From NCBI GenBank assembly GCA_947493955.1, contig CANLSQ010000001.1, forward strand, positions 124,001 to 188,000: 64,000 nucleotides of DNA. The letters are read 5' to 3'. The notes beneath the pieces were generated by a model, which saw nothing but the letters and a program-made list of their open reading frames with translations, had not been told where the DNA came from and ran no database searches. The translations under genes and the position numbers were made by a program. This stretch comes from an uncultured Sphingomonadaceae bacterium (GTDB lineage Bacteria; Pseudomonadota; Alphaproteobacteria; Sphingomonadales; Sphingomonadaceae). Within the stretch, counting starts at the first letter, position 1; every line of letters starts with the position of its first letter. This document shows positions 9,575-52,942 of the stretch, piece by piece.

Positions 9575-9650
9575 GCCCGAATAGCTCAGTTGGTAGAGCA
9601 AGCGACTGAAAATCGCTGTGTCGGTGGTTCGAATCCGCCTTCGGGCACCA
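9575..9650 (+). tRNA. tRNA-Phe (GAA)
   Basis: 76 bases. The acceptor stem is GCCCGAA (9575-9581) with TTCGGGC (9640-9646), discriminator A and an encoded CCA. The D arm is GCTCAGTTGGTAGAGC, the anticodon stem AGCGA/TCGCT carries loop CTGAAAA, hence anticodon GAA, and the T arm is GGTGGTTCGAATCCGCC with one mismatch allowed. The 3' end is intact and appears to be the insertion site of the island that follows. Confidence 0.97.
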
Positions 9651-9851: not shown

Positions 9852-11474
9852 TTAGGCCGGAACAAACCCAAACATCTTGCGCTGGCCGGCCCAGTCAAGT
9901 GGGATTTTGTTGATGCGCATGATTTTACGTCCGGTGAGATCAGGTGGCTGAGTTCCATCAACTATTGCAGAGATAATATCGGGAGCCATGAAGCTTAGTC
10001 TAGCTAGCTGCTGCAAATGCCGCTGCTTGTAGTGATTGACCATCGGAGAGTTTATTCCTCGAACTAGAAGATCTTGCGCTGCAAAGGCATGAGCAACCAG
10101 TCTGAGCAACACTGGATCTGGCTCACGCTTGATTGGTCCGTTGTCCGGTGTAATTGCCAATCTCACCTCTGATCCTCTGCTGACCATTTTAGCCTTAGTC
10201 GAAAGTTTGACCGATTGATCTTGATTGGGAGGTTCAAATTCGATTTCAATTGTTTCGGCGTTGATAGCAACGCGTATTTTCCAGTTGAGCAATAATTCGC
10301 GTTGTTCGGTGATAGACATCGCGGGCAGATCGATTGCGGTTTGACGATCCTGATTAATCTGAGCTTCCACTTCTCGTGCATCATCTGTCCCTGAACAGCT
10401 GCATGTCGCTAGATGCCTGGCAATTGTATCGATTACCAACCGCTCGATTTCTCCAGCGGGTAATCTCCATTTGGGAGATTTGTCTCCCGGTTGAGTTCGG
10501 GTGACATAATAGCGATATCTTTTTGATCCCTTGCTCGCATGAGCTGGTGTCATTGGCTTTCCGTCGGGATCGGTGATCATGCCAGTCAATAAACTGGGAT
10601 TGCGGCTTTTCTTACCCAGCGCATTGTCTTTGCGGTTAGTGCGAAAGATCGACTGGACCAGATCAAACAGCTCTTGCGAGATTATGGATTGGTGGATGCC
10701 TTCATATATCTCATCCTTGTGTCTCATTTTGCCAACATAGACAGGATTCTGAAGGAGATGGGTCAGGGTGCCAGTCTTGAAGAATATGCCGCCGACCTTC
10801 TTTCCGGTCTTCCATTTCCGTTCTCTGGTCTTGATGCCTTTAGCGGCCATTTCATCGACGAGATCGGGTACGGATCTGATCTGGGCATATCGTTCGAACA
10901 TAAGGCGCACCGTATTGGCCTCGGATTTGTTGATCACCAGCTGGCGATCGACAACATCGTATCCGAAGGGCACACCACCTCCCATCCACAAGCCCTTCTT
11001 CTTAGAGGCTGCAACTTTGTCGCGGATCCGTTCACCTGTGACTTCACGTTCAAACTGAGCAAATGATAGAAGGACATTGAGTGTCAGGCGCCCCATGCTG
11101 GTCGTAGTATTGAATGACTGGGTAACGCTGACGAAGCTGGCTTCATTCTCATCCAAGATTTCAACGATCTTGGCAAAGTCAGCAAGACTGCGTGTCAGCC
11201 GATCCACTTTGTAGACGACAATGATATCGACCTTTCCTGCTTTCACATCGTCCAGTAATTGGGAGAGAGCAGGGCGGTCCATGTTGCCGCCGGACCAGCC
11301 GCCATCATCGTAGAGTTCAGGAACAGCCTCCCAGCCTTCGCTGGACTGGCTCAATATATAGGCTGCACATGCCTCGCGCTGGGCGTCGAGACTGTTGAAG
11401 TCCTGTTCCAGTCCTTCCTCGGTTGATTTGCGGGTGTAGATGGCACAACGCTTTTTTGATTTTGCTTCACTCAC
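9852..11474 (-). CDS. Large serine recombinase, copy 1
   Basis: 540 residues with a GTG start at 11474 that overlaps the DUF2924 stop by eight bases. The resolvase catalytic domain is N-terminal, with nucleophile Ser17 in YTRKS, then the arginines of the VDRLTRS region and SFAQFEREVTGERIRDK at about 135-150. A recombinase domain (MGGGVPFGYDV, about 168-178, then LLQNPVYVGKMRHK near 240-253) and a C-terminal DNA-binding part follow. It should integrate and excise the island. Its last roughly 200 codons (9880-10490) are almost identical in DNA to copy 2 (38880-39490), while the upstream part differs at many third positions. Confidence 0.92.
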   Translation of the reverse strand: MSEAKSKKRCAIYTRKSTEEGLEQDFNSLDAQREACAAYILSQSSEGWEAVPELYDDGGWSGGNMDRPALSQLLDDVKAGKVDIIVVYKVDRLTRSLADFAKIVEILDENEASFVSVTQSFNTTTSMGRLTLNVLLSFAQFEREVTGERIRDKVAASKKKGLWMGGGVPFGYDVVDRQLVINKSEANTVRLMFERYAQIRSVPDLVDEMAAKGIKTRERKWKTGKKVGGIFFKTGTLTHLLQNPVYVGKMRHKDEIYEGIHQSIISQELFDLVQSIFRTNRKDNALGKKSRNPSLLTGMITDPDGKPMTPAHASKGSKRYRYYVTRTQPGDKSPKWRLPAGEIERLVIDTIARHLATCSCSGTDDAREVEAQINQDRQTAIDLPAMSITEQRELLLNWKIRVAINAETIEIEFEPPNQDQSVKLSTKAKMVSRGSEVRLAITPDNGPIKREPDPVLLRLVAHAFAAQDLLVRGINSPMVNHYKQRHLQQLARLSFMAPDIISAIVDGTQPPDLTGRKIMRINKIPLDWAGQRKMFGFVPA

Positions 11475-11925
11475 TGGTCAGAACTCTGGGCTTGTAGTCG
11501 CTTCGCTTCTTCAATCCGAAGAAACGCGGCCCCGACCAGTGAGCCCCGGTTATCTCCCGGGCAATATGGCTGAGGCTGGAGAAATGGCGGTCTTCATACT
11601 CAAACCCATCTTCGCAAACTAGCACGTGGTAGCTTTTGCCGTTCCATTCCCGAACAAGACGCGTGCCATTCTTTAGGGATATGGCGTGAGTAGGACCTGC
11701 CTTACCCGTCCGCTCGATACGTTTCTGCAATCGCGCAATTTCTCTCTTTGTTACACCCGTCAGGCTTCCATGAACACGTTCCTGCAACCGATTGGCGATC
11801 CCGCGCCTCAGCAGATCAGGACCGATATCGGGGGCTGGGGATCGATAAGTATCCCGCCACATCGAACGCAGCTGTGCAGGAGGCGTGGACATGAGCGCAG
11901 CCAACTGTTGTTCGAGTTCGCTCAT
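11467..11925 (-). CDS. DUF2924 protein, recombinase partner, copy 1
   Basis: 152 residues matching the DUF2924 family found directly upstream of large serine recombinases in alphaproteobacteria. Features are PDIGPDLLRRGIANRLQE (about 33-50), a basic linker, LVREWNGKSYHVLVCEDGFEYEDR in residues 90-115, and SLSHIAREITGAHWSGPRFFGL near 117-138. It overlaps the recombinase start by eight bases and the DUF3489 stop by four, so the three are one operon. A role as recombination accessory or DNA-binding factor is inference from constant pairing. A close homologue is at 40470-40928. Confidence 0.88.
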   Translation of the reverse strand: MSELEQQLAALMSTPPAQLRSMWRDTYRSPAPDIGPDLLRRGIANRLQERVHGSLTGVTKREIARLQKRIERTGKAGPTHAISLKNGTRLVREWNGKSYHVLVCEDGFEYEDRHFSSLSHIAREITGAHWSGPRFFGLKKRSDYKPRVLTSE

Positions 11926-12616: not shown

Positions 12617-12840
12617 GTTTCGGATTAATATATCGAAAGAAGCATGCGATCTGGTTACAACCGATCTCGGACATTCAAAAAGGAGATACTCCACAGCCTC
12701 CAGAGAAAGGTAGGTTGCTGTATGACCACCGCAAAGCCCAAATGCTTGGGCAGTTCAGCTATAACGTCAAGAATACCATTGATGATATGAAGAATCGCCA
12801 ATTTCAAAGCCGGTTTCTTGGCGATGAAAACGAACGCTAA
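12616..12840 (+). pseudogene. C-terminal remnant of an unidentified gene
   Basis: A frame of about 74 codons without an in-frame ATG or GTG near its start runs from the intergenic repeat to TAA 12838-12840. It reads as plausible protein: HAIWLQPISDIQKGDTP, then GRLLYDHRKAQMLGQFSYN, then IDDMKNRQFQSRFLGDENER. Codon use and amino-acid make-up look coding. Its 5' part is missing where the recombinase module begins, so it was probably cut by insertion or deletion. The end overlaps the convergent Avs-like gene by four bases. The parent family is not recognised. Confidence 0.4.
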
Positions 12841-15800
12841 ACCGCGTCCCGTCGATACTGTTCTTGTTGCAAGAAACCCGCACCGCGCACACCATTGTCA
12901 ACGAGAATGTCGACGATGAGGGAAATCATATTCCGGTGTGCGCCATCCAAATGGTCAGACTTGTCGTTTAGAATTTTCTTCAATACATCAACCGTCTCAT
13001 CGCCGTTCACATCCCAAAATTCCTGATCTGATTTACGGTCTTTTGCAATCTGCTCCAACCAACTCAGAACAGGGTCAGGTGCCAAATCCATTCCGCCTTT
13101 GAGGAGAAATCGCGCCACGCCCAAATACAGACTTTTGTTCGACCCAAACTTTTCAACCACCCGAGAGATTATAGGTGCGAAACGATCTAACGGCATCCAT
13201 CCTTCCTCGACCACACAAACCAACGGTTGAAAATCAGGAGCAAAACAAAATAGCGTCAGGTATACACAGCTTGCAAATTCTCGGTCGACATGACGCAGAT
13301 GTTGTCCTTCCGGATTTTCTATAATCCAATTCGAGATCATTTCCCAAATCGCAAAATCCTCATCCGTGAGTTCGGCAGGCGGCAAAATGCAATGGGCCAA
13401 GACAGCCCCCGCGAAACTCTGCATCGCCATGAGTGCGCTTTCATTCTCTGCGTTTAAGAGCGGCGGCAGGATATGTTCTTCAATTTCTTGCTTTGACAGG
13501 AAACGACAGGTTGCGCCTAGCCGGAAAAAATATCCGTAAACCCACTCATATGGGACACGACCTTCATAATCCCGTCGCTTTTCTGCGAATGGAGGAAGCA
13601 TCTCCTGAAATGTCATTTCGGTTAGTTGTTGCAGCATGTTGAGTATCTGTGCCCGTTGGCTTGGGACGGACATTAACGTGTCCATATTAGATTTGAGCAC
13701 AGTTTTTCGCGCAATATGATCCTGAAACAGCAACACATTCCGAATGTAGTCATCACGGCTGTCACCATCTGAGCCTGTTGCATCCTTTTTTGACACCCAG
13801 GGCAGTGGTATCTGCGGTAGTCTAGACGATTTACCCGCTTCAAGAGCCTTAACGGCATCATTGACCAGTTTCTGATCGCGGGCGTCTTCGTCTCCGTCCT
13901 TTGCGGTCGAGTGATAGTTCGGACGTTCGTTTTCCTGAATGATACAGCGTCGTACGAACAACACGAAAATTTCCCACGTCAGTTGGGGTGTGAATTGTTC
14001 CAGTCCGTTCACTGATTCTGCAACTGCCGCTCCTACAGATTCAAACGGATGCAACGCAAAATCGCACATCATTTCTTGGAATTCAGAGCGTTTGACATCC
14101 CGCACAATTAGTGCCGCGCTGGCATGCACCGCAAAAATCAACGGGTGCATCGAAAGGGCTGTGCCACGATAGGTGATATCGTCATTGTCAACAGAGTTTG
14201 ATGCGCGGCGGATAGTGTCAACGACCCATCGCTCAGTATCATCCGTCCAAAGTTCACCATCGGCAAATTTCGCCAAACAATAGGCCACTCCGGCTATGGC
14301 GGCCGCTCTCTCCCAAGCCCGATAATCGATCCCCGCGGGTTCAAAGATGTCGTCGGCATCAAGTTCTTTGGCTTCATCAAGAGCCTCCGCAAGCCCTACG
14401 TCATCTCTCAACTCGCCCTCATCAAGGCTCTTTTGCGCCCAAAACGCCAGACGTAAATAACGTTCATTCAGCGCTAAATCTTCTATCACCTCAACGCGTT
14501 CAGGCGCGTCTGCCGATGGTGGATCGTTCCAGAATTTGATACGACCGTCATCCATCTTTTCCGTGCGCCAATATTGCGGGTCGGCTTGCTCCACCATCCA
14601 GTCGACAGATTTTTTTACAGCCGCGACACGATCTTTGTCTTTTTGCTCCTCTTCATACGCGAATGGCAACCTTTCAGGCATCGTCCGTACTGCATCTTTG
14701 TATTTCTCGGTTAGCTCGGCATCGCCGCTGAAAACGAAATAGGGAATCAAATCGCGAATATATATCTTACGGTGCTCTCGCTGATTCAGCGTTCTGACGG
14801 GCATCATCAAGTGCCGATTGCGAAGCCAATCCGCGATTTCATTGGAATGGCTTCCTGAATTGTCCGCCATTGATCGATTCAAATCCCACTCCCAAATATG
14901 CGGACAGGTAATGAAATTCAGAAGATGGCTCATGGCCTTTTCTTGGTTCGAGATACATAAACTCACAGCCATACCGAGTGCGGCCACGCTGTCGTTACCT
15001 TCGATGATCTTTTGAAGCACAGCGTCAAATTCATCTCCGGCTTCTAGCCGCTCAAATGCCCACCATTCCAACGCCATCAATGCGCTGTTGCTGGCACTGT
15101 TGCCCCATCCACCACGGAACCAACTATATACTTGATCATCTCCCCAGAAGCTCTGTTTGCCCCATGAAAATTCAAGTTCGAGCGGCAAGGGAGTAACGCC
15201 TTTTTGGTAATGATCGTTTCTCTCCCGATGCCAACGCCAGACGTCTATCGAGTGATTGCAAACAGCCCGTATCAATCTCAGCCCCTGCGCTTCGTTTTGG
15301 CGGAGCAACGCCAGAAATGGAGATTGATAGGGAGATGCCGGGTAGAAAGATTGAAAGCCTGCAATCCCAAGCTCTCTTTCCATCATATCGTGACGACCAT
15401 ACGGGGATTCATCATCTTTCGGGTGTTCAAAAAACGTTTCTGTGATGTAATCCACCAGTTCAGTCGGAACGTGCCGGGCAAGGCCGTTGGACTCAGGTAG
15501 GATTTTTTCCCGATATACATGCGCTAAACGATCAGTTGATTTTTCCCGCAGATACTCCCCAACCAATTCGGGAATATCACCTACCGATGACAGAAAGAGA
15601 GAGCGTATGGAGTCTTCCAGCTCTTTCTCTTTTTCATATCGAACCGAAAGTCCGAAGGGATTGCGACGATCCTCAAATCTCACCGGATGTCGCGCGTCTT
15701 CAAACTCTGCCAGCCAGCGCGACGCTATTTCTCCGATACGCTTGCAATGGCGAACATTTTGTCCAGCGCCGAACGATTGCCACGTTTTGAACACCGGAAC

Positions 15801-18044
15801 GAGATTTGGAATCAGTTCGGGTTGGGGATCCTCTTCATTTTGAAAAAGCCAATCCAAGAAGCGAACCCAAGTAAAAACTTTCGGCAAGGCCGCATGCTGT
15901 GCAAATTTTACACGTTCATCCGGCTCAAGATCGGGTAGCGTTTTCTCATCAAGAAATATCGGATTCGGAACGACTTCCAGTGTCTGCAACGCGTTCAACA
16001 GCTTTTTCAACACAGCGTTGTCATCTGCCGTCAGGAAAGCAGTCAGCTTGTTCAATATCTGTCTTGATTGCGTGGAACGAAGACAGGAGGTCAGCAATGT
16101 CCGCTGCCAGATCGGCCGCAAACTCTCGTCTTCGCAATCGGCATAAAGTTGCCGCCATTGCTTGTCGCTATTGTGTGTTTCCAGTTGGTATGATCCCAAA
16201 AGCTGGAGCGGCCTAACCAATTCCTGCGGTTCAGCAACTGAACGCAACGCCTTTGACACGTCCGGTAGGCGGCTCATTAGCCACTCGCACAATGCCCATT
16301 CTTCATAGATGTCATGCGCAAAAATTACTGTATGTCCGAGGCTTGCATCCCGAAGAACCCCTGCCGATTTTAGGGTTTCCAACGCTTGCGGTGATATGTC
16401 CTTAATCCCGATGGGCGAACTTGGCTTTTCCAAAAGGCGTTCAGACAAGTCAATTAACGCGTTCCGCCGATCTTGAGCTGATGCGGTAGCCGCTTCATCG
16501 GAACCGCCGAGTTGCCACCACAGTTGCAACAGTTCGGCTTCGCTTGCTGGTAGTGCGTCTTTACCTTCCTGCCCTGCCAAGCGAATTATGGAGTCCAGAA
16601 AAAACGGTCGCCGCAAAATAATGTCGGCTTGCTCCGTATCCATCAAAAGTGGCCTTAGCCTTGGAAACGCATCCGCAACAATTTGCAGATCTTGTCGATC
16701 CAACGACGGCACCGTAACCGTTTTGATAGAGAGCTGTTTCAAAGCCTCAGGGTTAAGCCAGGTTGCCACATGATCGAGATTTTGTTCGCGCACCGTGACC
16801 AGAATCTTCCAATCCGACAATGATGGTTCGGTTGCAATAACCTGCACAATGTCATTGATTGTCACACGGACTCCGTGTTCGCTGATTTTATCGATGCCAT
16901 CTATGAACAACACGGCTGGCCCGATACATGCAAATTCATGCAACAGTTCGACCAAGTTGTCCGATAGCCCCATTTGACCGGCGTGAGCGGCCCAACCCCC
17001 TGACAAAATCCGGCTGTCTTTCAGAAAAAATACCGAACCTAGCTGGTGTTGCTGTTCAGCAATTTGCCTCAGCAAGGCCGATTTGCCCGATCCCGGCTCT
17101 CCATCGATTTGGATGAACCGCCCCTCCGCCATCGCATCCACCACCGCATCGAACGGTTTGTTTCGGCGAAGTCGCAGTCCTTGGATATCGGGCTTGACTG
17201 TGGTCAAAGCCCGTCGAGATTCCCGATCAATTTTTTGAACATCCTGCCACAAACTGCCGGAGTATACGGTTGGAAGAGACTTTGATCGCAAACTCGCTAC
17301 CAGCGTTTCTCTTGTATCTCCTCCTGCCGTTGGTCCAGCTTGGCCCGCCCGAACAATGAGGTGATCCCAAATTGAATCTGCACGGGATCGTGCGTCTGTG
17401 GGCAAGGCATTGCGTATGCGGTCAATGACGTGTTCAACATCCCGCGACGCTTCTTCATTTTGAAAATCAAAATGCAATATCCGAAACACACGCAGGAAGC
17501 ACCAAAACTGTTCATCCGAAATTTCAGCGCCCGCATGCTGAGACAATATGTTGCGCGTAATTTCTACGAATTGCCGTTGATCCTGATGAGCAAAGTCTGT
17601 GCAGGAAATGCGCGTGAAAAAGTCATCAGCCGAGGGACTGTGTTCTGCCCATGCCAATACCGCTTGGAAATATTTGTCAGCCCGCGCATTGTAGGAACCG
17701 ATAGCCACGCCGAGACGATGAGACTCTTGATCAAACTCGTCGGCAGAAAAACTGGCCCACGCCTGATGCAATACATCAATCCATTGCTGATCTTTGTCGG
17801 TGAAACGAAGTGTATTCTTGACCTGAAGGGCAAGTTTGGTTTCTCGGCCATCGTCATCCAGTCCCGAAACAATAACATCATCCAGCGGTTCACCTAGATC
17901 GGCACGTTGAGCGACCGCTTTCGTGGCGTGAATACCTGGCAATGCCCGAACTGGGCTTTGAGTCAGGACTCCCGCCAAACAATATGCGAAGACTCGCGTT
18001 TCAAATTGAGTTCCGCCACCGCCCGTCGAATACGGGCTTGTCAT
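12837..18044 (-). CDS. Avs-like STAND NTPase with N-terminal PD-(D/E)XK (Cap4-like) nuclease
   Basis: A 1735-residue protein. Residues 1-115 resemble a Cap4/Mrr-type nuclease: GGGGTQFE with Glu15, LDD at 54-56 and LQVK at 73-76, the E...D...QxK pattern. A STAND/NACHT-like ATPase follows, with Walker A GEPGSGKS at 315-322 and Walker B VLFIDGID at 378-385. The remaining 1,200 or so residues are helical and repeat-like without recognisable domains, as in Avs sensors. In the Avs families this C-terminal part binds a conserved phage protein, and oligomerisation switches on the nuclease. An anti-phage role is inferred from architecture and island location. The ribosome-binding site is weak and no partner gene overlaps. 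Confidence 0.8.
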   Translation of the reverse strand: MTSPYSTGGGGTQFETRVFAYCLAGVLTQSPVRALPGIHATKAVAQRADLGEPLDDVIVSGLDDDGRETKLALQVKNTLRFTDKDQQWIDVLHQAWASFSADEFDQESHRLGVAIGSYNARADKYFQAVLAWAEHSPSADDFFTRISCTDFAHQDQRQFVEITRNILSQHAGAEISDEQFWCFLRVFRILHFDFQNEEASRDVEHVIDRIRNALPTDARSRADSIWDHLIVRAGQAGPTAGGDTRETLVASLRSKSLPTVYSGSLWQDVQKIDRESRRALTTVKPDIQGLRLRRNKPFDAVVDAMAEGRFIQIDGEPGSGKSALLRQIAEQQHQLGSVFFLKDSRILSGGWAAHAGQMGLSDNLVELLHEFACIGPAVLFIDGIDKISEHGVRVTINDIVQVIATEPSLSDWKILVTVREQNLDHVATWLNPEALKQLSIKTVTVPSLDRQDLQIVADAFPRLRPLLMDTEQADIILRRPFFLDSIIRLAGQEGKDALPASEAELLQLWWQLGGSDEAATASAQDRRNALIDLSERLLEKPSSPIGIKDISPQALETLKSAGVLRDASLGHTVIFAHDIYEEWALCEWLMSRLPDVSKALRSVAEPQELVRPLQLLGSYQLETHNSDKQWRQLYADCEDESLRPIWQRTLLTSCLRSTQSRQILNKLTAFLTADDNAVLKKLLNALQTLEVVPNPIFLDEKTLPDLEPDERVKFAQHAALPKVFTWVRFLDWLFQNEEDPQPELIPNLVPVFKTWQSFGAGQNVRHCKRIGEIASRWLAEFEDARHPVRFEDRRNPFGLSVRYEKEKELEDSIRSLFLSSVGDIPELVGEYLREKSTDRLAHVYREKILPESNGLARHVPTELVDYITETFFEHPKDDESPYGRHDMMERELGIAGFQSFYPASPYQSPFLALLRQNEAQGLRLIRAVCNHSIDVWRWHRERNDHYQKGVTPLPLELEFSWGKQSFWGDDQVYSWFRGGWGNSASNSALMALEWWAFERLEAGDEFDAVLQKIIEGNDSVAALGMAVSLCISNQEKAMSHLLNFITCPHIWEWDLNRSMADNSGSHSNEIADWLRNRHLMMPVRTLNQREHRKIYIRDLIPYFVFSGDAELTEKYKDAVRTMPERLPFAYEEEQKDKDRVAAVKKSVDWMVEQADPQYWRTEKMDDGRIKFWNDPPSADAPERVEVIEDLALNERYLRLAFWAQKSLDEGELRDDVGLAEALDEAKELDADDIFEPAGIDYRAWERAAAIAGVAYCLAKFADGELWTDDTERWVVDTIRRASNSVDNDDITYRGTALSMHPLIFAVHASAALIVRDVKRSEFQEMMCDFALHPFESVGAAVAESVNGLEQFTPQLTWEIFVLFVRRCIIQENERPNYHSTAKDGDEDARDQKLVNDAVKALEAGKSSRLPQIPLPWVSKKDATGSDGDSRDDYIRNVLLFQDHIARKTVLKSNMDTLMSVPSQRAQILNMLQQLTEMTFQEMLPPFAEKRRDYEGRVPYEWVYGYFFRLGATCRFLSKQEIEEHILPPLLNAENESALMAMQSFAGAVLAHCILPPAELTDEDFAIWEMISNWIIENPEGQHLRHVDREFASCVYLTLFCFAPDFQPLVCVVEEGWMPLDRFAPIISRVVEKFGSNKSLYLGVARFLLKGGMDLAPDPVLSWLEQIAKDRKSDQEFWDVNGDETVDVLKKILNDKSDHLDGAHRNMISLIVDILVDNGVRGAGFLQQEQYRRDAV

Positions 18045-36499: not shown

Positions 36500-37816
36500 C
36501 TAGTTCGGCGGAGAACTGTGCAGATCATCGAACTTGATATCAAGCCCGGTATGCATAGCCTGTTTGCCGGTCATCGCTTGCCAGCGTTTTATCGCGACGT
36601 CGCAATAGTGCGGATCCAGCTCAATCGCCCGGCATTGGCGCGCAGTTTGTTCTGCGGCGATGATGGTCGTGCCAGAGCCAGAAAAGGCATCCAGGATGAT
36701 GCCGCCACGTTTGGAACAATCAAGGATTGCATCAGCAACAAGCTGCGTTGGTTTGACGGTTGGATGCATCGCCAATTCTTCATCCCTGCCTTCCTTGAGC
36801 GAGTTTATGCCGGCATAGTCCCAGACATTGGTCCGGTAGCGCCCGTGCTGCCCGAGCTCAAAATTGTTGATATGCTTGGCCGAACCGCTCTTGAACGCAA
36901 ATATAAGTTCATGTTTGGACCGATAAAATGAGCCCATCCCGCCATTGTCCTTGTTCCAGACAATCAGGTTTTTCAGTTCTGCATAGTTTGCGCCGCCAGC
37001 TGCCAGGATTTCGTTCATATGACGCCAGTCCATGCAGACATAGTGGATTGATCCATCATCACTATGTTTTGCAAGCTGCTTGAAACAGTTTTCTAGAAAG
37101 TCGGTAAATTCTTCGCATGTCATCTCGCCAGAGGCCATGGCAAAATCATCATGTTTTACCTTGCCGAGCCCGCATACATGACCATCTACAGGAACATTGT
37201 AAGGTGGGTCGGTGAAGATCATCTGCGCAGGTTCACCGGCCATGAGTGAGATGTAGGTTTGTTCACATAATGAATCGCCGCAGATCAGTCGGTGATTTCC
37301 AAGTTCCCAGATATCGCCCAGCTTCGTGACCGCAGGAACAGATGTATCAACCTCCGGGATAGCATTTTCGGGTTCAACAGCCTCGAGTGGGTCAAGTATT
37401 TTGGTAACCTCGGCATCGCTAAAGCCTATGCTGTCCAGATCGAAACCCGGTTCAAGGTCTAAAATATTTTCATATTCCAGCTTGAGCACGCCTTCATCCC
37501 AGTCAGCAAGTTCTGCCAGGCGGTTGTCAGCGATGACATAGGCCTTGCGATCTGCTTCACTGAGGCCGTTGATACAGGCTGTCGGTACCTCGGACATACC
37601 CAACTGCTTTGCAGCCGCGATCCTGCCATGGCCGGCGATGACATTATTATGTTCATCGACCAGTATTGGGTTGGTAAAGCCAAATTTTTTGATGCTTTTT
37701 GCAATCTGGCCAATTTGTTTGGCGGAATGTTTGCGGGCATTGCCAGCATAGGGTTTGAGATTAGACGGCTTTTGACCGATGATTTTGTCGGCAAGCCGCT
37801 TGGGCAAATGGTTCAT
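36500..37816 (-). CDS. DNA methyltransferase with N-terminal ParB-like domain
   Basis: 438 residues from ATG 37816, chosen because GGAGGT lies five bases upstream. Residues about 10-110 form a ParB/Srx-like domain with NPILVDEHNNVIAGHGRIAAAK (about 47-68), the GHGR motif. The methyltransferase part has DPPYNV (motif IV, about 205-210) before DAFSGSGTTIIAAE (motif I, about 385-398), the order of the beta class that methylates adenine N6 or cytosine N4. Island-borne solitary methyltransferases of this layout are common in phages. Whether it pairs with the nuclease at 35453 is open. The ribosome-binding site is inside a hairpin. Confidence 0.9.
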   Translation of the reverse strand: MNHLPKRLADKIIGQKPSNLKPYAGNARKHSAKQIGQIAKSIKKFGFTNPILVDEHNNVIAGHGRIAAAKQLGMSEVPTACINGLSEADRKAYVIADNRLAELADWDEGVLKLEYENILDLEPGFDLDSIGFSDAEVTKILDPLEAVEPENAIPEVDTSVPAVTKLGDIWELGNHRLICGDSLCEQTYISLMAGEPAQMIFTDPPYNVPVDGHVCGLGKVKHDDFAMASGEMTCEEFTDFLENCFKQLAKHSDDGSIHYVCMDWRHMNEILAAGGANYAELKNLIVWNKDNGGMGSFYRSKHELIFAFKSGSAKHINNFELGQHGRYRTNVWDYAGINSLKEGRDEELAMHPTVKPTQLVADAILDCSKRGGIILDAFSGSGTTIIAAEQTARQCRAIELDPHYCDVAIKRWQAMTGKQAMHTGLDIKFDDLHSSPPN

Positions 37817-37818
37817 GT

Positions 37819-37843
37819 AAACCTCCATTGTTAAAGGAGGTTT
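37819..37843 (-). promoter_or_regulatory. Hairpin masking the methyltransferase ribosome-binding site
   Basis: On the transcribed strand AAACCTCC (37843-37836) and GGAGGTTT (37826-37819) pair perfectly over 8 bp with a 9-base loop. The descending arm is the Shine-Dalgarno sequence of the gene starting at 37816. The hairpin begins eight bases after the stop of the upstream gene. Translation would need opening of the hairpin, for example by ribosomes leaving the upstream gene. With only three Us after it, it is a poor terminator. Confidence 0.55.
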
Positions 37844-38854: not shown

Positions 38855-40477
38855 TTAGGCTGAAGGGAACCCAAACATCTTGCGTTGCCCGGCCCAGTCT
38901 AGTGGGATTTTGTTGATACGCATGATCTTGCGTCCGGTAAGATCAGGGGGCTGTGTTCCGTCAACTATCGCAGAGATAATATCGGGGGCCATGAAGCTTA
39001 ACCTAACAAGCTGCTGCAAGTGCCGCTGCTTGTAGTGATTGACCATCGGAGAGGATATTCCCCAAACCAGAACGTCTTGCGCTGCGAAAGCATGAGCTAT
39101 CAGTCTGAGCAACACTGGATCTGGCTCACGCTTGATTGGTCCATCATCCGGTGCAATTGCTAATCTTACTTCTGATCCTCTGCTGACCATTTTTGCCTTA
39201 ATCGAGAGTTTGACCAGTTGATCCTGATTTGGAGGCGTGAATTTGATTTCAATTGTTCCGGTGTTGATAGCAACGTGAGTTTTACAGTTGAGCAATAATT
39301 CGCGTTGTTCGGTGATAGACATCGCGGGCAGATCGATTGAAGTTTGACGATCCAGATTAATCTGAGCTTCCACTTCTCGTGCATCATCTGTCCCTAAACA
39401 GCTGCATGTCGCTAGATGCCTGGCAATTGTATCGATTACCAACCGCTCGATTTCTCCAGCGGGTAATCTCCATTTGGGAGATTTGTCTCCAGGGTCTGTC
39501 CGTGTGACATAGTAGCGATAGCGCTTGGATCCCTTTTTCGCATGTGCCGGAGTCATTGGCTTGCTATCAGGATCGGCAACGAAGCCTGTTAATAGACTAG
39601 GGTTGCGACTCTTCTTTCCAAGGGCATTATCACGCCTATTCTCGGAGAAAGTCGATTGAACGCGCTCAAACAAATCATTCGAGATGATCGGTTGATGCGC
39701 GCCATCATAGATTTTTTCCTTATGCCGGACTTTCCCAACATAGATCGGGTTTTGAAGGAGATGGGTTAAAGTGCCTGTTTTGAAATGGATGCCACCGGTG
39801 ATCTGCCCGGATCTAAATACACGAGTTCTGGTGCGAATGTCGTCTGCGGCTAGTTCTTCAACCAGCTGCGGAACTGATTTGAGTTCAGCATATCGCTCAA
39901 ACACATGCCGAATGGTTTTCGCTTCGGCCTCATTGATCAGGAGCTGACGTTCCGTCACATCGTAGCCGTAAGGAACACCGCCGCCCATCCACATGCCTTT
40001 CTTCTTAGATGCCGCAACTTTGTCGCGAATGCGTTCACCGGTGACTTCGCGTTCAAACTGCGCGAAGGAGAGAAGCACGTTAAGTGTCAGTCTTCCCATG
40101 CTGGTTGTTGTATTGAACGATTGGGTTACGCTGACGAATGAAGCATCGTTATCATCCAATATCTCAACAATCTTAGCAAAGTCAGCCAATGCACGCGTGA
40201 GTCGATCAACCTTGTAGACAACAATGATATCGACTTTGCCTGCTTTTACATCAGCCAGCAGCTGAGCTAGGGCAGGGCGATCCATAGTACCCCCTGACCA
40301 TCCGCCATCGTCGTAAAGTTCTGAAACTGCTTCCCAACCTTCACTGGCTTGGCTCAATATATAGGCAGCGCATGCTTCTCGTTGGGCATCCAGACTGTTA
40401 AAGTCCTGCTCCAGACCATCTTCCGTCGATTTGCGAGTGTAGATCGCGCACCGCTTTCGTTTTGATCGCTCAGTCAT
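38855..40477 (-). CDS. Large serine recombinase, copy 2
   Basis: 540 residues from ATG 40477, which overlaps the DUF2924 stop by eight bases (ATGACTGA). The catalytic Ser17 is in YTRKS, and the N-terminal resolvase domain, the recombinase domain (MGGGVPYGYDV; LLQNPIYVGKVRHK) and the C-terminal region follow as in copy 1. Protein identity with copy 1 is high throughout, but at DNA level the C-terminal third is nearly identical while the rest is only moderately similar. It should serve island 2. Both copies look intact. Confidence 0.92.
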   Translation of the reverse strand: MTERSKRKRCAIYTRKSTEDGLEQDFNSLDAQREACAAYILSQASEGWEAVSELYDDGGWSGGTMDRPALAQLLADVKAGKVDIIVVYKVDRLTRALADFAKIVEILDDNDASFVSVTQSFNTTTSMGRLTLNVLLSFAQFEREVTGERIRDKVAASKKKGMWMGGGVPYGYDVTERQLLINEAEAKTIRHVFERYAELKSVPQLVEELAADDIRTRTRVFRSGQITGGIHFKTGTLTHLLQNPIYVGKVRHKEKIYDGAHQPIISNDLFERVQSTFSENRRDNALGKKSRNPSLLTGFVADPDSKPMTPAHAKKGSKRYRYYVTRTDPGDKSPKWRLPAGEIERLVIDTIARHLATCSCLGTDDAREVEAQINLDRQTSIDLPAMSITEQRELLLNCKTHVAINTGTIEIKFTPPNQDQLVKLSIKAKMVSRGSEVRLAIAPDDGPIKREPDPVLLRLIAHAFAAQDVLVWGISSPMVNHYKQRHLQQLVRLSFMAPDIISAIVDGTQPPDLTGRKIMRINKIPLDWAGQRKMFGFPSA

Positions 40478-40928
40478 TGGCAAGCACTCTCGGTTTGTAT
40501 CCGCTTCGTTTCTTCAATCCGAAGAAGCGAGGGCCAGACCAGTGCGCGCCGGTGATCTCGCGGGCAATATGGCTAAGGCTCGCATAGTGGCGGCCTTCAA
40601 ACTCAAAGCCATCATTACAAACAAGCACATGGTAGCTTATGCCGTTCCATGATCGAACTAGTCTTGTTCCAGTCTTGAGTGATATCGCATGCATGTGGCC
40701 AGCTTTGCCGGTGCGTTCGACGCGCTTGCGAAGTTTCTCAATCTCTCGTTTGGTGGCACCCGTCATACTGCCATGGACACGTTCCTGCAGCCGGTTTGCG
40801 ATACCGCGCCGAAGCAGGTCAGGTCCGATGTCGGGTGAAGGTGATTTGAACGTATCGCGCCAGGCTGCTCGCAACTGGGCTGGGGGCATGGTTGTTAGTT
40901 CAGTCAATTGTTTGTCTGGCGAGGTCAT
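40470..40928 (-). CDS. DUF2924 protein, recombinase partner, copy 2
   Basis: 152 residues, homologous over the full length to the protein at 11467-11925, with PDIGPDLLRRGIANRLQERVHGS and SLSHIAREITGAHWSGPRFF conserved exactly and differences mainly at the N terminus. It is coupled to both neighbours by overlapping stop and start codons. Divergence from copy 1 is spread evenly, unlike the recombinase C-terminal region. Confidence 0.88.
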   Translation of the reverse strand: MTSPDKQLTELTTMPPAQLRAAWRDTFKSPSPDIGPDLLRRGIANRLQERVHGSMTGATKREIEKLRKRVERTGKAGHMHAISLKTGTRLVRSWNGISYHVLVCNDGFEFEGRHYASLSHIAREITGAHWSGPRFFGLKKRSGYKPRVLAND

Positions 40929-48203: not shown

Positions 48204-48692
48204 TTACCCGGCTCGTTGGAATTCAAAATCAGCGTCAAGATGCGGTTGCCATTTCTGGTGGTAAAGGCGCATTTCGTGACGGATAGCATTTCCGCCTGCT
48301 CCCGGCACCTCGAATACTAGTCCTGTTACTTCATCTTCGTCGGCCCATCCCCATTTGGCCATCCGCTTCACGTAAACGGAGGCATCCGGCCGCGTTCCAA
48401 GTTGCGCTAACACTTCAAACAAGCATACTCCGGATAGCATCAACGGCCGATGTCGTTTTGCTAAAGCTATTGAAATTTCTGACATGCGAAGAGCTAAGAC
48501 GTATTCTCCTTGATCATGTATCAGAGCACAGTCCAAGTCAAAAAAGGCCGCGCCAAGCTCCCTCGCCAAATCCATTGCAAGCGTGGTCTTACCTACACCC
48601 GTCCAACCATCAATCCCAACAATGCCGGAATTGCCTACTTTTTCACTAAGTGCGTTCGCGAGATCTTCTAGTTGCGAGAAAACGACAGGCAT
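48204..48692 (-). CDS. P-loop NTPase or kinase-like protein
   Basis: 162 residues with a Walker A motif GIDGWTGVGKTTLAMDLA (about 27-44), as in uridine kinase-like and zeta-toxin-like folds. FFDLDCALIHD follows as the second strand region with Asp. The rest has no recognised motif; the end is Trp- and His-rich (YHQKWQPHLD). It is transcribed away from the MBL/E2-E1-JAB operon, 238 bases from it, so a link is possible but not shown. The 48693-48930 gap holds the promoters and a run of nine Cs at 48849-48857. Confidence 0.65.
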   Translation of the reverse strand: MPVVFSQLEDLANALSEKVGNSGIVGIDGWTGVGKTTLAMDLARELGAAFFDLDCALIHDQGEYVLALRMSEISIALAKRHRPLMLSGVCLFEVLAQLGTRPDASVYVKRMAKWGWADEDEVTGLVFEVPGAGGNAIRHEMRLYHQKWQPHLDADFEFQRAG

Positions 48693-48930: not shown

Positions 48931-50031
48931 ATGGCAATTAACCAAATCACCTTCTTCTCTGTCGATAATGGCGACTCCGTGCTCCTGGAGGCACATGGCT
49001 GGACCATCATGACAGATGTGAATTATCGTGCCAGCGCGGCTGATGAAGAGGATGACGATCATCATGATTTTGCGCCTATTTTGCGTGATGCCTGTGACAA
49101 CGATCAGCTTGATATCTTTGTCCTGACTCATCCGGACGAGGATCACTTACGAGGTTTTCGAGATATTTTCCATCTTGGTCGCCCGGAGGATCGTGATGAT
49201 GATCCAGATGACGGCGATGTATTGCTTATAGCCAACGAGATTTGGTGCTCGGAATATGCAGCAAATCCCAACTATACCACCGATGTGTCCAAGCCTGTCT
49301 TGGATGAGATCAAAAGACGCAAAGATCTTCAGGGAACCGCGGCAGGAGAAATAGACGGAAATCGGATACAGATACTGACAGCGACAAACGCGAATGAGCA
49401 GGACATCACTGATGGCCTCTCATGGCGTCTGCTTGCTCCTGACGCAGGTGAAGCAGACATTCCCAAGGCACCTGACGGCGAGCCAAGGAACAGCTCCAAT
49501 CCATCGAGCCTAGTTGTCCAATGGTCAATTACCGTTGGCTCTACAACTTCCAAAGTTCTTTTGGGAGGTGACGGTACGGTCGAGGTTTGGGAGCGGATCA
49601 ATCAAGAATACGGCACAACCTCAAGGGAGTGGAACATTCTTTTGGCACCGCACCATTGCTCACGCCATTCTATGGGGCGCGCTAATAGCGACGGCGAATT
49701 CGAATGGTCAGACGACGCAATTTCTGGCCTGGATAACCCGAGAGGGTCCAGTCCTCATGTAGTATCGAGCTCGAAGAAGTTTGAGGGTAGTACACCCCCC
49801 AATCCAAAAGCGCGGGATAGATATCACAATATTTTAGCTCAAGGCGAAGATGTCGATGAGAACGTTCGTTCTAGGTTTCTAGTCACCGCAGGTAAGAAGG
49901 GCGAAGAAGCAAAGGACATTGTTTTCACCTTCAAAACTTCAGGTCCAAGCCTAAAGCTCATTGGCACTGCCACATCAGCTTCAATTATGTCTTCATCGCC
50001 CGCCTCAGCTGGCGGCGGTGGTTATGGCTGA
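48931..50031 (+). CDS. ComEC-like metallo-beta-lactamase-fold protein with Gly-rich C-terminal tail
   Basis: 366 residues. The N-terminal FFSVDNGDSVLLE resembles the VxxGDSxL of ComEC-type MBL proteins. Metal ligands are in place: H67, D69, D71, H72 in THPDEDHLRG, D214 in LGGD, and H241-H242 in APHHCSRHS. This group includes nucleases and phosphodiesterases. An acidic insert (EDDDHHD; EDRDDDPDDGD) lies around 39-96. The last 18 residues are Ser/Ala/Gly-rich and end GGGGYG, a flexible tail. The stop overlaps the start of the E2-E1-JAB fusion by eight bases, so the two are coupled. The tail is a candidate for adenylation and transfer by that partner; this is inference. Confidence 0.85.
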   Translation: MAINQITFFSVDNGDSVLLEAHGWTIMTDVNYRASAADEEDDDHHDFAPILRDACDNDQLDIFVLTHPDEDHLRGFRDIFHLGRPEDRDDDPDDGDVLLIANEIWCSEYAANPNYTTDVSKPVLDEIKRRKDLQGTAAGEIDGNRIQILTATNANEQDITDGLSWRLLAPDAGEADIPKAPDGEPRNSSNPSSLVVQWSITVGSTTSKVLLGGDGTVEVWERINQEYGTTSREWNILLAPHHCSRHSMGRANSDGEFEWSDDAISGLDNPRGSSPHVVSSSKKFEGSTPPNPKARDRYHNILAQGEDVDENVRSRFLVTAGKKGEEAKDIVFTFKTSGPSLKLIGTATSASIMSSSPASAGGGGYG

Positions 50032-52327
50032 AAACGACAAGAATTTCGCCAGAAACATTGAGTGGGAGATTGCCCGTATTCGCAACTTCCCATCGACTGT
50101 TGATGATAGCGTTACTTTTGAGATGCGGGGCGGAGACGCAGCTTTATCTTTTCAGATCTGCACTGATCCGCTTTTAGATGGAGAGTCCGCAGCTTCGATC
50201 AACGACATAGAGCCGATCTGCTTCTTATATGGCTCAGCTGATCAAATCGGGAAAAAGGCTCCAGTAACGCTCAGTGAGCGTGATGATTTTCCACGCGATT
50301 TGTCCCATCTTAACCCGGGCGAAAAAGAGCTGCCAGCTAATCTGTGTTTGTCGCGAACCAATATCCAAGTAATCTATGATCGGTTTGGGATTGTTGGCAT
50401 TCTAGACCGACTGTCGAATTGGCTCAGCGATGCCAAAAGTGGCATCTTATATGAAGATGGTTGGGAACCAGTACCCATGCCTCCCACAGAGGGCGGTGTT
50501 GTGGGTTCGATAGATCCGAAAAGATTTCAGTTACTAGCAGCGCAGAGCCCTACTGGCGGGGCCAGATTCATTTGTGCGCGCTTTCGTCACTTGCACGGTG
50601 AGAATTTCACGATCGATGCTGCACGATCTTTTCTGGATACGTCGGATTCTGAAATCCTCCGAAAGACAAGAATTCAAATGTCCACTGCGCAAGGGGACGA
50701 GACCGACATTCCAGCCATTTTTTGCTGGCCGGATAGCAAGACAAAACGTCAAAAACCGTTTTTCAACCAATGGACTGACATCAACTCACTTATTGATGGT
50801 CTGAAGGAAACGTCGCTCTGGGATCATGCCGAGGAGTCCACCATCAAGATGAATGTTCTCTTCAAGGACCAAGATGAGAAAGCGGTTCCACCGGACTTTC
50901 TTTTCAAGAACAGAAGATGTGGCTTTCTCCTTATTGTAGGGCTTTGGCGACCGCTACACATAGATCGCTCTGTTGGTGGATTGGCCGAAAATGATGATTT
51001 AGCGCGCTCATTGGAGTTGCGTGCATACTTCATTAGTCGAGATCGAGATCAAGAAGATCATTGGCATAGCTCGGCCAAAGTCGAACCATTTCACGGCTTC
51101 ACGCCGGTAAATTCTGACACGCTGCGCGCAGTATCCGGTGAGGACCCCATGGGAGATTTGCTTTTCTTCGGCGCTGGTGCACTTGGTAGCAATTTAGTTG
51201 ATCATGCGGCGCGTAGCGGCGTTGAGAAGATGAAGGTCGTCGATCAAGACATTTTTTTACCGCACAACACGGCAAGGCACATCGGAAACGTGTACACGGT
51301 CGGCGTTGAAAAGGCGGAGTTGTCTGCCAAATATGCTGATGCAGTGAACAGAGATATCTCAGTTACCTCTGCTAGAGTGGATGTTCTATCACTGACAGAC
51401 AAAGAGTTCGCCGATGAGATTGAAGAGCATAGTAGTGTAATCGACGCTACGGCCAATCCACAAGTGCGGATCAGGTTATCAAAAAGCGGCATTCCAAAAA
51501 GACAGCTTTTTCGATCTGAGATTTTCAATCAAGGTCGACTGGGTGTTACGATGGCCACCCAGACCGACAGTCCCATTACCCTTAACTTTCTCCATCATTG
51601 GCTAATTTCCCAATCTTCTACCATCCAGAATGTGAAAGATTGGATCTCATACGAAGCGACGGGTAACTTTCGAGACCACGAGCTGCTGCTGGGCTTTGGG
51701 TGCCAGTCATTCACCACGAAGCTGCCTAATTATAAGTTGTCCGTGCATGCAAGCGCTGCTTATGCAGCCATCAGGTCGCATGTATCTACTTCTAATGCTC
51801 CGCCAGCAGTTTACCTGAATGAGATTGACGAAGCGGGTCTGCCGCGCGGCACAAACATCCTACTGCCAGGTGAAGTAGTTGTATTTCATGATGCTGCAGA
51901 TACCGATGGTTGGCGAGTGATCGTACCCCAAAACGTTCTTGAAAAGATGCATGCTATGAGAGCTCAAAAAGCACCTGATGAAACCGGTGGCTACCTCTAT
52001 GGCGCAATCTCCGAAGATAACTCAGAGTTGTATGTACTTTTCATCTCGACAGAGCCTCCTGGAACTAAGGGAAGCCCCACTCACTTAGCTCTTGGTATAT
52101 GTGGCCGCACCGGTGAGGAAAGAGCATTTTTACGTCGGACCGGGCGTCGATTGCCCCCGATAGGTACCTGGCATTCCCATCCGTCCGGTGCGCCTGCGGC
52201 CTCGAAAACCGACTGGAAAACTCTCGATAGATTCCTCGAAACAGACGCCGCACACGCCATGCCCACGTTTATGCTGATAAGCGGTGCTCAAGAGGATCGC
52301 GCTTATGTCAAGGATAATCGAGCTTAG
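50024..52327 (+). CDS. E2-E1-JAB triple fusion (ubiquitin-like transfer protein)
   Basis: 767 residues from ATG 50024, inside the MBL stop. Residues 1-160 look like a prokaryotic E2: HLNPGEKELPANLCLS with candidate catalytic Cys108, then DRLSNWLSDAKSG. A middle part (165-370) is unassigned. Residues 375-590 are a ThiF-like E1: GAGALGS (383-389), VVDQD (405-409), NTARH (415-419), DATANP (474-479) and FGCQS with possible catalytic Cys560. Residues 640-767 are a JAMM peptidase: E653, H717, H719, S727 and D730 are all present. In type II CBASS, Cap2 (E2-E1) and Cap3 (JAMM) are separate; here one chain holds all activities. No ubiquitin-like gene is nearby. Confidence 0.88.
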   Translation: MAENDKNFARNIEWEIARIRNFPSTVDDSVTFEMRGGDAALSFQICTDPLLDGESAASINDIEPICFLYGSADQIGKKAPVTLSERDDFPRDLSHLNPGEKELPANLCLSRTNIQVIYDRFGIVGILDRLSNWLSDAKSGILYEDGWEPVPMPPTEGGVVGSIDPKRFQLLAAQSPTGGARFICARFRHLHGENFTIDAARSFLDTSDSEILRKTRIQMSTAQGDETDIPAIFCWPDSKTKRQKPFFNQWTDINSLIDGLKETSLWDHAEESTIKMNVLFKDQDEKAVPPDFLFKNRRCGFLLIVGLWRPLHIDRSVGGLAENDDLARSLELRAYFISRDRDQEDHWHSSAKVEPFHGFTPVNSDTLRAVSGEDPMGDLLFFGAGALGSNLVDHAARSGVEKMKVVDQDIFLPHNTARHIGNVYTVGVEKAELSAKYADAVNRDISVTSARVDVLSLTDKEFADEIEEHSSVIDATANPQVRIRLSKSGIPKRQLFRSEIFNQGRLGVTMATQTDSPITLNFLHHWLISQSSTIQNVKDWISYEATGNFRDHELLLGFGCQSFTTKLPNYKLSVHASAAYAAIRSHVSTSNAPPAVYLNEIDEAGLPRGTNILLPGEVVVFHDAADTDGWRVIVPQNVLEKMHAMRAQKAPDETGGYLYGAISEDNSELYVLFISTEPPGTKGSPTHLALGICGRTGEERAFLRRTGRRLPPIGTWHSHPSGAPAASKTDWKTLDRFLETDAAHAMPTFMLISGAQEDRAYVKDNRA

Positions 52328-52942
52328 TTAGCTGTCCTCGTCCGTTCTCAGGAACTCGACATACATTTCTCTCGCATAGTGTATACCAAAGCGCACCATT
52401 CTGTAAGTTGCGACTGTTCCAGCCATCCCCAGTAGCAGGGCTGTCAACCAAAGATCTAGATCAACAAAGAGCACCATGATTGCGGAAACCAAAAAGCCTG
52501 CTGCTACGCCGCGCATTAGACCATAGTTCCTGTTGAACCTTTCAATGCGTTCGAGGCTACCAGATTGTCTTACAATGACAGCGATCTCTCGAAATGTGCT
52601 GCGCCCAGACTGCAAAGAGGTGAGCTCAGCACCAAGTCTGCTCTTGATTGAGGTCGAAAGCCGACCGCATTGGTCGTCGCTGAGGAGTATTGTTTTCTCA
52701 AATGTAGGCCACGTTGAGGGCATTCCGCCAGCGGGCTTCCAAATCAGCCACTCCCATCCGTTCCCAATAGCCTGCAACAAATGTCCGGATAGGAACGCGA
52801 GGATCATTAGTAAGCCAAAATCTCCTAGGGACAGCGAAGCCTGCAGGGTGGGAGCAACGGATGGAAACAGCACGCCAATACTTACAACCAAGATTGTTCC
52901 AGGAACTATAACTCCTATGTAGTCGTAAGGGTCAAACTTCAT
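52328..52942 (-). CDS. Four-helix membrane protein convergent with the E2-E1-JAB gene
   Basis: 204 residues. The N-terminal FDPYDYIGVIVPGTIL leads into helix 1 (about 8-27), helix 2 is at about 40-58, a cytosolic helical part rich in Arg/Ser follows, and helices 3 and 4 are at about 143-180. Its stop codon directly abuts the stop of the fusion gene with no spacer. Membrane proteins with a similar FDPYxYIGxIxPG start occur in bacterial defence islands as I recall. A role as membrane effector is possible but unproven; the family is otherwise unknown to me. Confidence 0.65.
   Translation of the reverse strand: MKFDPYDYIGVIVPGTILVVSIGVLFPSVAPTLQASLSLGDFGLLMILAFLSGHLLQAIGNGWEWLIWKPAGGMPSTWPTFEKTILLSDDQCGRLSTSIKSRLGAELTSLQSGRSTFREIAVIVRQSGSLERIERFNRNYGLMRGVAAGFLVSAIMVLFVDLDLWLTALLLGMAGTVATYRMVRFGIHYAREMYVEFLRTDEDS

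Follow-up and report, generated by a model that had tools for sequence, protein, structure and literature searches.

The window analysed here was a stretch of 64,000 nucleotides from an uncultured Sphingomonadaceae bacterium (GenBank assembly GCA_947493955.1, contig CANLSQ010000001.1, positions 124,001 to 188,000 of the forward strand). It contained a gene for a metallo-β-lactamase (MBL)-fold protein, which overlapped the gene of a fusion protein composed of a ubiquitin-conjugating enzyme (E2)-like part, a ubiquitin-activating enzyme (E1)-like part, and a JAB part. A gene for a small membrane protein, probably a third component, adjoined the fusion gene (Table 1). Both open reading frames (ORFs) and their overlap lay where a preliminary description of this DNA had placed them. 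The Prok-E2_A, ThiF, and Prok-JAB families matched the fusion in that order within one chain, all three above the Pfam cut-offs. Residues C108, C560, E653, H717, H719, S727, and D730 of the fusion and the metal ligands H67, D69, D71, H72, D214, and H241 of the MBL were located in the sequence; the ligands, the GGGGYG end, the JAMM motif, and Cys108 were all as described earlier. The NCBIfam 20.0 model NF058523, named 'anti-phage 6A-MBL system cap2_3 protein', covered fusion residues 55–752, and NF058524, the model of the MBL of that system, matched the window MBL with an E-value of 1.9e-63 over model positions 1–346 of 346. No Pfam family matched the MBL at E-values up to 1. The Cap3 model NF050170 gave a weak match to the fusion (0.00055), below its cut-off.

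Table 1. Features of the locus (positions count from the first letter of the window)
Feature	Positions	Strand	Remarks
MBL-fold protein gene	48931-50031	+	366 residues, C-terminal GGGGYG; ORF confirmed
MBL C-terminal tail, residues 346-366	49966-50028	+	predicted disordered (pLDDT <50), ends Tyr-Gly (GGGGYG)
Overlap of MBL and fusion genes, 8 bases (ATGGCTGA)	50024-50031	+	sequence
E2-E1-JAB fusion gene, 767 residues, start ATG 50024	50024-52327	+	NF058523, 402.9 bits (cut-off 320)
E2-like part (Prok-E2_A, fusion residues 51-159), with His95 and Cys108	50174-50500	+	Pfam; both residues 95/95
Cys108 codon of the E2-like part	50345-50347	+	
ThiF-like E1 adenylation part (fusion residues 380-487)	51161-51484	+	Pfam; resembles the E1 part of Cap2 (7to3, 7tsq, 7tsx)
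Cys560, candidate E1 catalytic cysteine	51701-51703	+	95/95; role by analogy with Cap2
Prok-JAB part (fusion residues 635-736), complete JAMM motif	51926-52231	+	Pfam; residue alignment
Membrane protein gene, 204 residues, probable third component	52328-52942	-	convergent with the fusion gene, ends abutting; family A profile 1.1e-6

Relatives were collected as numbered loci. A scan of genome contigs confirmed 190 stretches, the best 80 of which were kept. A homologous MBL lay directly upstream of the fusion in 78 of these 80 loci, which had been found via the fusion alone, and the fusion of the remaining two (L042 and L048) was at a contig edge; chance co-location of the two genes was set aside on this count. 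Together with 11 plasmid loci, five viral loci, and the window, the genome loci gave a set of 95 with the MBL directly upstream of the fusion. Nine of the 11 plasmid loci (L001–L011) had been selected for an MBL match and were therefore uninformative on MBL presence. Loci with no upstream MBL were excluded, namely L012, L017, L042, and L048, in which the fusion was cut at the contig edge, and the non-members L019–L022. When plasmids were searched with tblastn, the fusion returned 278 records, none with a coverage of at least 80% and some surely from other E1 systems, and the MBL returned 230 records, 215 of which had a coverage of at least 80%. Viral contigs contained no relatives when scanned with the window fusion; with A1 as the query, 11 loci were found, five of which carried the MBL and the fusion. 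No relatives of the MBL were found in the phage record collection at E 0.001. By NCBI ranks, 77 of the 95 loci were spread over nine phyla, and 18 were unplaced.

The catalytic residues were strictly conserved in this set. His95 and Cys108 of the E2-like part, Cys560 of the E1-like part, and the five JAMM residues were unchanged in all 95 fusions. Each metal ligand of the MBL was kept in 90 to 94 of the 95 rows, the others being gaps or single changes in an alignment that includes some fragments. The window fusion formed a long branch in a tree of 65 fusions, built by a quick method with the plain LG model after fusions shorter than 650 residues or more than 80% identical had been left out. 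Its top identity among the tree fusions was 27%, to L023; the two are long branches that meet in the tree, and their pairing is unsure.

The C-terminus of the MBL showed a pattern that followed the fusion. The predicted model of the window MBL had a mean pLDDT (predicted local distance difference test) of 86.5, and the lowest values, below 50, were above all those of residues 346–366. Of the 68 distinct MBLs paired with the fusion (MBLs more than 90% identical removed), 63 had the motif [H/Y]G in their last 10 residues. Thirty-nine of these 63 tails ended at the glycine, and 24 extended beyond it by 1–7 residues. The same pattern was present in 3 of 68 fusion C-termini, in 51 of 2497 internal MBL stretches, and in 21 of 1017 other ORFs of at least 200 residues, which are not all real genes. 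It was present in none of 23 MBL-fold proteins unpaired with this fusion, mostly second MBLs of the same loci; from this set MBLs shorter than 250 residues and repeats had been removed, about ten alike second MBLs were still inside, and it included the MBL of L019, which stands before an E1-like protein of a different kind. A glycine-ending motif on a disordered linker, found together with E1 and E2 parts and in some members extended by a few residues, is the pattern expected of a modifier with a precursor processed by JAB. The tail data support the idea that the E2-E1 part may activate the MBL itself, with the JAB part trimming or removing it. The preliminary description had proposed the MBL itself as the conjugated component; the tail pattern was as expected from this proposal, and the conjugation itself we infer. 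In the viral contig of L019 (3707–7329), an MBL-like ORF was followed directly by an E1-like protein that scored 81 bits with the fusion profile and lies outside the 6A family.

The best match of the MBL model in the PDB was the MBL domain of ComEC (9ic4), with an E-value of 2.4e-13 and a TM-score of 0.74 by target length, and the next fold matches were phosphorylcholine esterase (1wra and 2bib). The metal motif, HPDEDH, had an aspartate at the place of a histidine in other MBLs, as in ComEC. The ComEC domain with this feature has been reported to bind manganese and to cut DNA as a metal-dependent nuclease (PMC8579336). Weak PADLOC matches of the window MBL were to models named RTasMBL, LmuA, PDC-M48B, and Avs1a. 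MBLs of such a kind in Hachiman and AVAST are described as DNase proenzymes, and those of DRT, Lamassu, and AVAST are placed in a group with reported DNase activity (PMC12799240). By analogy, the MBL of the window is likely a nuclease, with a phosphodiesterase as a live rival.

A membrane-protein gene accompanied most of the loci. Clustering of the ORFs at the downstream end gave three groups of membrane proteins with several helices (25, 24, and 4 members), one group of second MBLs (15 members), and a patatin pair (2 members). With iterated profiles, 80 of the 95 loci proved to contain a membrane gene from family A, B, or D, a count that has no random-locus background. The nearest copy was downstream in the same direction in 52 loci and downstream and convergent in three, including the window; it was upstream in the same direction in 10 and on the other strand in 14, and it overlapped in one. 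In 63 of these 80 loci the distance between the gene and the pair was at most 100 bases; these were the window, L046, L049, L052, L053, and 58 of the 61 loci that had no second MBL. On the fusion tree, with labels typed by hand from the profile table (L026 as its own state and L034 as downstream), the membrane family and its position each underwent at least 12 changes, so the association has outlasted repeated exchange. The preliminary description had called the locus a two-gene system; this point was not supported, as the membrane-protein gene most likely belongs to it, and the system probably has three components.

The membrane protein of the window was assigned to family A by a profile of 52 members from which it had been left out. 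It was the sole non-member listed among 6448 ORFs. It contained the invariant residues Tyr6, Gly141, and Arg144 of the family, and its model, with a mean pLDDT of 87.7, consisted of four long helices, a predicted membrane fold for which the PDB held no match at E 0.001. A phmmer search with this protein alone listed family A members first, from 6.6e-5. The family D profile did not detect it with default filters and gave 0.049 with the filters off. Convergent family members lay at the same end as in the window in L010 and L065. Profile comparison gave a probability of 20% for families A and B, the unity of which was not demonstrable, and of 94% for families A and D over the first 87 columns only. 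Weak matches to the PADLOC model Csx27 in L010 (7336–8028; 8.4e-4) and in the window protein (0.035) hint that the membrane proteins may be akin to the accessory membrane protein of CRISPR type VI-B.

The same membrane family also occurred away from the ligase. Six such loci were picked by hand, five from 36 plasmid records matching a Sphingobium membrane protein and one from the single record matching that of the window. This last record, from Polymorphobacter, contained the nearest relative of the window membrane protein (35% identity). An MBL-fold neighbour stood beside the membrane protein in all six loci, although the one in L103 matched the 6A profile at just 8e-4. Within the stretches read, the fusion profile detected no E2-E1-JAB protein. 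The three MBLs scanned of the six matched PDC-M48B, that of L103 at 3.4e-64. These loci, L103–L108, came from Polymorphobacter, staphylococci, Rhodococcus, Burkholderia, and Acinetobacter, and the MBL and family A genes were arranged in the same direction, convergently, or divergently, as a candidate small module. Since all six had an MBL neighbour, the regular partner of the membrane protein may be the MBL, with the ligase added to this pair; among the readings offered this is the boldest, and it comes from few loci. Taken further, a two-gene module of a ComEC-like MBL enzyme and a four-helix membrane protein could have been captured by a ubiquitin-type ligase. The MBL would then have gained its glycine tail and taken on the role of modifier, and a whole nuclease would be attached covalently, perhaps to the membrane partner or to phage proteins. 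This history is possible but doubtful.

The arrangement of the pair is already known. In the part of Iyer, Burroughs and Aravind (2006, PMC1779556) that concerns row 6a, a triple-module E2, E1, and JAB protein is placed beside a specialised MBL, usually as two genes with a sporadic distribution, and NCBIfam lists the 'anti-phage 6A-MBL system'. The mention of such neighbourhoods in the preliminary description agrees with this account. The window shares the order of the three parts in one chain and the adjacent specialised MBL. It differs in that its MBL scored 214.7 bits against the NF058524 cut-off of 220, and it was filed by architecture as a divergent member. The membrane gene in most of the loci also departs from the usual two genes of the 2006 account. 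The anti-phage label is the NCBIfam name.

Type II CBASS (cyclic oligonucleotide-based antiphage signalling system) resembles the window in its Cap2 and Cap3 enzymes, to which the E2-E1 and JAMM parts correspond. WYL and CapP-like proteins near some relatives, and a patatin-like protein at the position of the third gene in L009 and L028, are further likenesses. Unlike in type II CBASS, an MBL takes the place of the cyclase, and the Cap2-like and Cap3-like parts are fused in one chain. The lack of a cyclase, noted in the preliminary description, held for the two genes and the two flanking genes, the four proteins among which no cyclase family was matched, and membership in type II CBASS was set aside for this reason. 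The trypsin-MBL modules of Hachiman, AVAST, Lamassu, and DRT, as portrayed in PMC12799240, likewise have a ComEC-like MBL controlled by a separate enzyme; their control is proteolytic, whereas the window has E2-E1-JAB and a glycine-ending tail, and none of the four proteins in the Pfam scan, the fusion included, had a match to a trypsin-like family. The MBLs of the PADLOC candidate PDC-M48B are alike in standing beside a family A membrane protein; they are unlike in that the stretches read held no E2-E1-JAB and their tails lacked [H/Y]G. L103 and the 187-residue MBL of L106 were outside the set of 23, and their ends, read separately, also differ. For the dedicated ubiquitin-like gene of the Bil and Bub systems, the ORF list gave no obvious candidate in the window flanks.

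Taken together, the locus is considered to belong to the 6A-MBL systems as a divergent member that most likely has three components and works by conjugation of the MBL tail, with a probability of about 0.58. The E1 part would adenylate the C-terminal glycine of the flexible tail, and the E2 part would transfer the MBL through Cys108 to amino groups on target proteins. The JAB part would trim tail extensions and remove conjugates, as Cap2 and Cap3 act on the cyclase of type II CBASS, the C-terminus of which forms an isopeptide bond with lysines (PMC10097602). The MBL would be a ComEC-like metal-dependent nuclease or phosphodiesterase, with attachment setting its activity or location, and the small membrane protein would be its partner, either as a membrane effector or as an anchor and restraint. 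The preliminary description had tied its interpretation to an E2-like N-terminal domain with a conserved Cys108 and to a conserved flexible MBL tail. Its interpretation still stands after these tests, since the Prok-E2_A match, the invariant Cys108 and Cys560, and the flexible tail were all found; overall it was partly supported, the number of genes being the part that changed.

Several observations weigh against the conjugation of a three-component system. When solved Cap2 was compared with the fusion profile, the E2 part was left unaligned, so that neither Cys108 nor Cys560 could be aligned with a residue of a solved structure. Five of the 68 distinct MBLs had no [H/Y]G, four of them with PRAG followed by 0 or 4 further residues and one with a TQG end. 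The window MBL fell 5 bits under its NCBIfam cut-off. The membrane gene was about 1 to 2.4 kb off in 17 of the 80 loci, and in L026, L031, and L033 it adjoined the second MBL rather than the pair. Fifteen of the 95 loci had no membrane gene. Six of these had fewer than 450 bases downstream, and L009 and L028 carried the patatin-like protein, but L008, L013, L018, L032, L087, L095, and L098 had ample flank with neither a membrane gene nor a patatin. The lack of a random-locus background counts here as well, as do the convergent orientation of the window membrane gene and the fact that its nearest relative adjoins another kind of MBL. No functional study of the pair was found in the literature searched, and the work behind the NCBIfam name may hold some of the present findings.

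Alternatively, the tail could serve as a switch operated by processing. It would be modified or cleaved by the E1-E2 or JAB part, which would turn on an inactive MBL nuclease with no attachment to other proteins, similar to the trypsin-MBL modules. The MBL nucleases of other defence systems are indeed described as proenzymes activated by a partner protease (PMC12799240), and the 24 extended tails are what a JAB substrate would show. However, cleavage would not call for full E1 and E2 parts with invariant cysteines, and the 39 tails that end at glycine offer nothing to cut; a switch of this kind is quite improbable. It is very improbable that the substrate of the fusion is a ubiquitin-like protein from a gene elsewhere, with the MBL merely a co-transcribed effector. 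Types 6d and 6e carry their own ubiquitin-like proteins, as listed in PMC1779556, but the [H/Y]G tail was found with the fusion (63/68) and not without it (0/23) among the MBLs compared, and the ORF list held no obvious small ubiquitin-like gene in the window flanks.

The activity of the MBL and the membership of the membrane gene in the window were weighed in the same way. If the MBL were not a DNase but a phosphodiesterase, and its substrate a nucleotide or lipid signal by which the membrane protein is gated, the phosphorylcholine esterase matches, the frequent membrane partner, and the patatin-like protein in the membrane-gene slot of L009 (by Pfam) and L028 (clustering with that of L009) would be accommodated. 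This is unlikely, as the ComEC domain was the best match by both E-value and TM-score, and the weak matches to RTasMBL, LmuA, and Avs1a lead to the DRT, Lamassu, and AVAST group with DNase activity according to PMC12799240. A two-gene system with the convergent membrane gene as a bystander is rather unlikely. The gene is on the strand opposite to the fusion, its only plasmid relative is in another MBL operon, in Polymorphobacter, and it matched the convergent gene of L010 weakly by blastp (19.5% identity, 1.9e-4, in a set of 98). On the other side, it adjoins the fusion gene without a gap, the family A profile found it with the window left out and listed no other non-member, and the family members of L010 and L065 are convergent at the same end.

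The surroundings of the relatives and of the window were also inspected. Of 151 ORFs chosen from 56 loci, 148 neighbour proteins were scanned, and these included WYL proteins (9), ImmA/IrrE peptidases (7; PADLOC capP 7), AbiLi (5), and type I methyltransferases (4), together with transposases, integrases, and plasmid genes. The gene set probably serves in defence against viruses. Within the window, a 1735-residue protein (12837–18044, minus strand) matched PADLOC Avs4 (3.4e-34) and PDC-M54A (8.3e-20) with weak AAA/nSTAND matches, and probably represents a second defence gene. A serine recombinase gene accompanied by a 152-residue gene was present twice, in the same direction on the minus strand (9852–11925 and 38855–40928); the copies lay about 27 kb apart and were 78.7% identical over 2.5 kb. 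The ORFs between them resembled metal-efflux genes by eye, and a tRNA-Phe gene was located at 9575–9650. A DNA methylase (N6_N4_Mtase; 36500–37828, minus strand) had a ParB_N match near its start just below the cut-off. The divergent P-loop gene at 48204–48692 was set aside as a part of the system, having no Pfam match above cut-off.

Functional work on 6A-MBL systems may need the third gene in addition to the MBL and the fusion. If the proposed conjugation is true, a nuclease would join the CBASS cyclase among enzymes used as ubiquitin-like modifiers, and the MBL would be the second such case.

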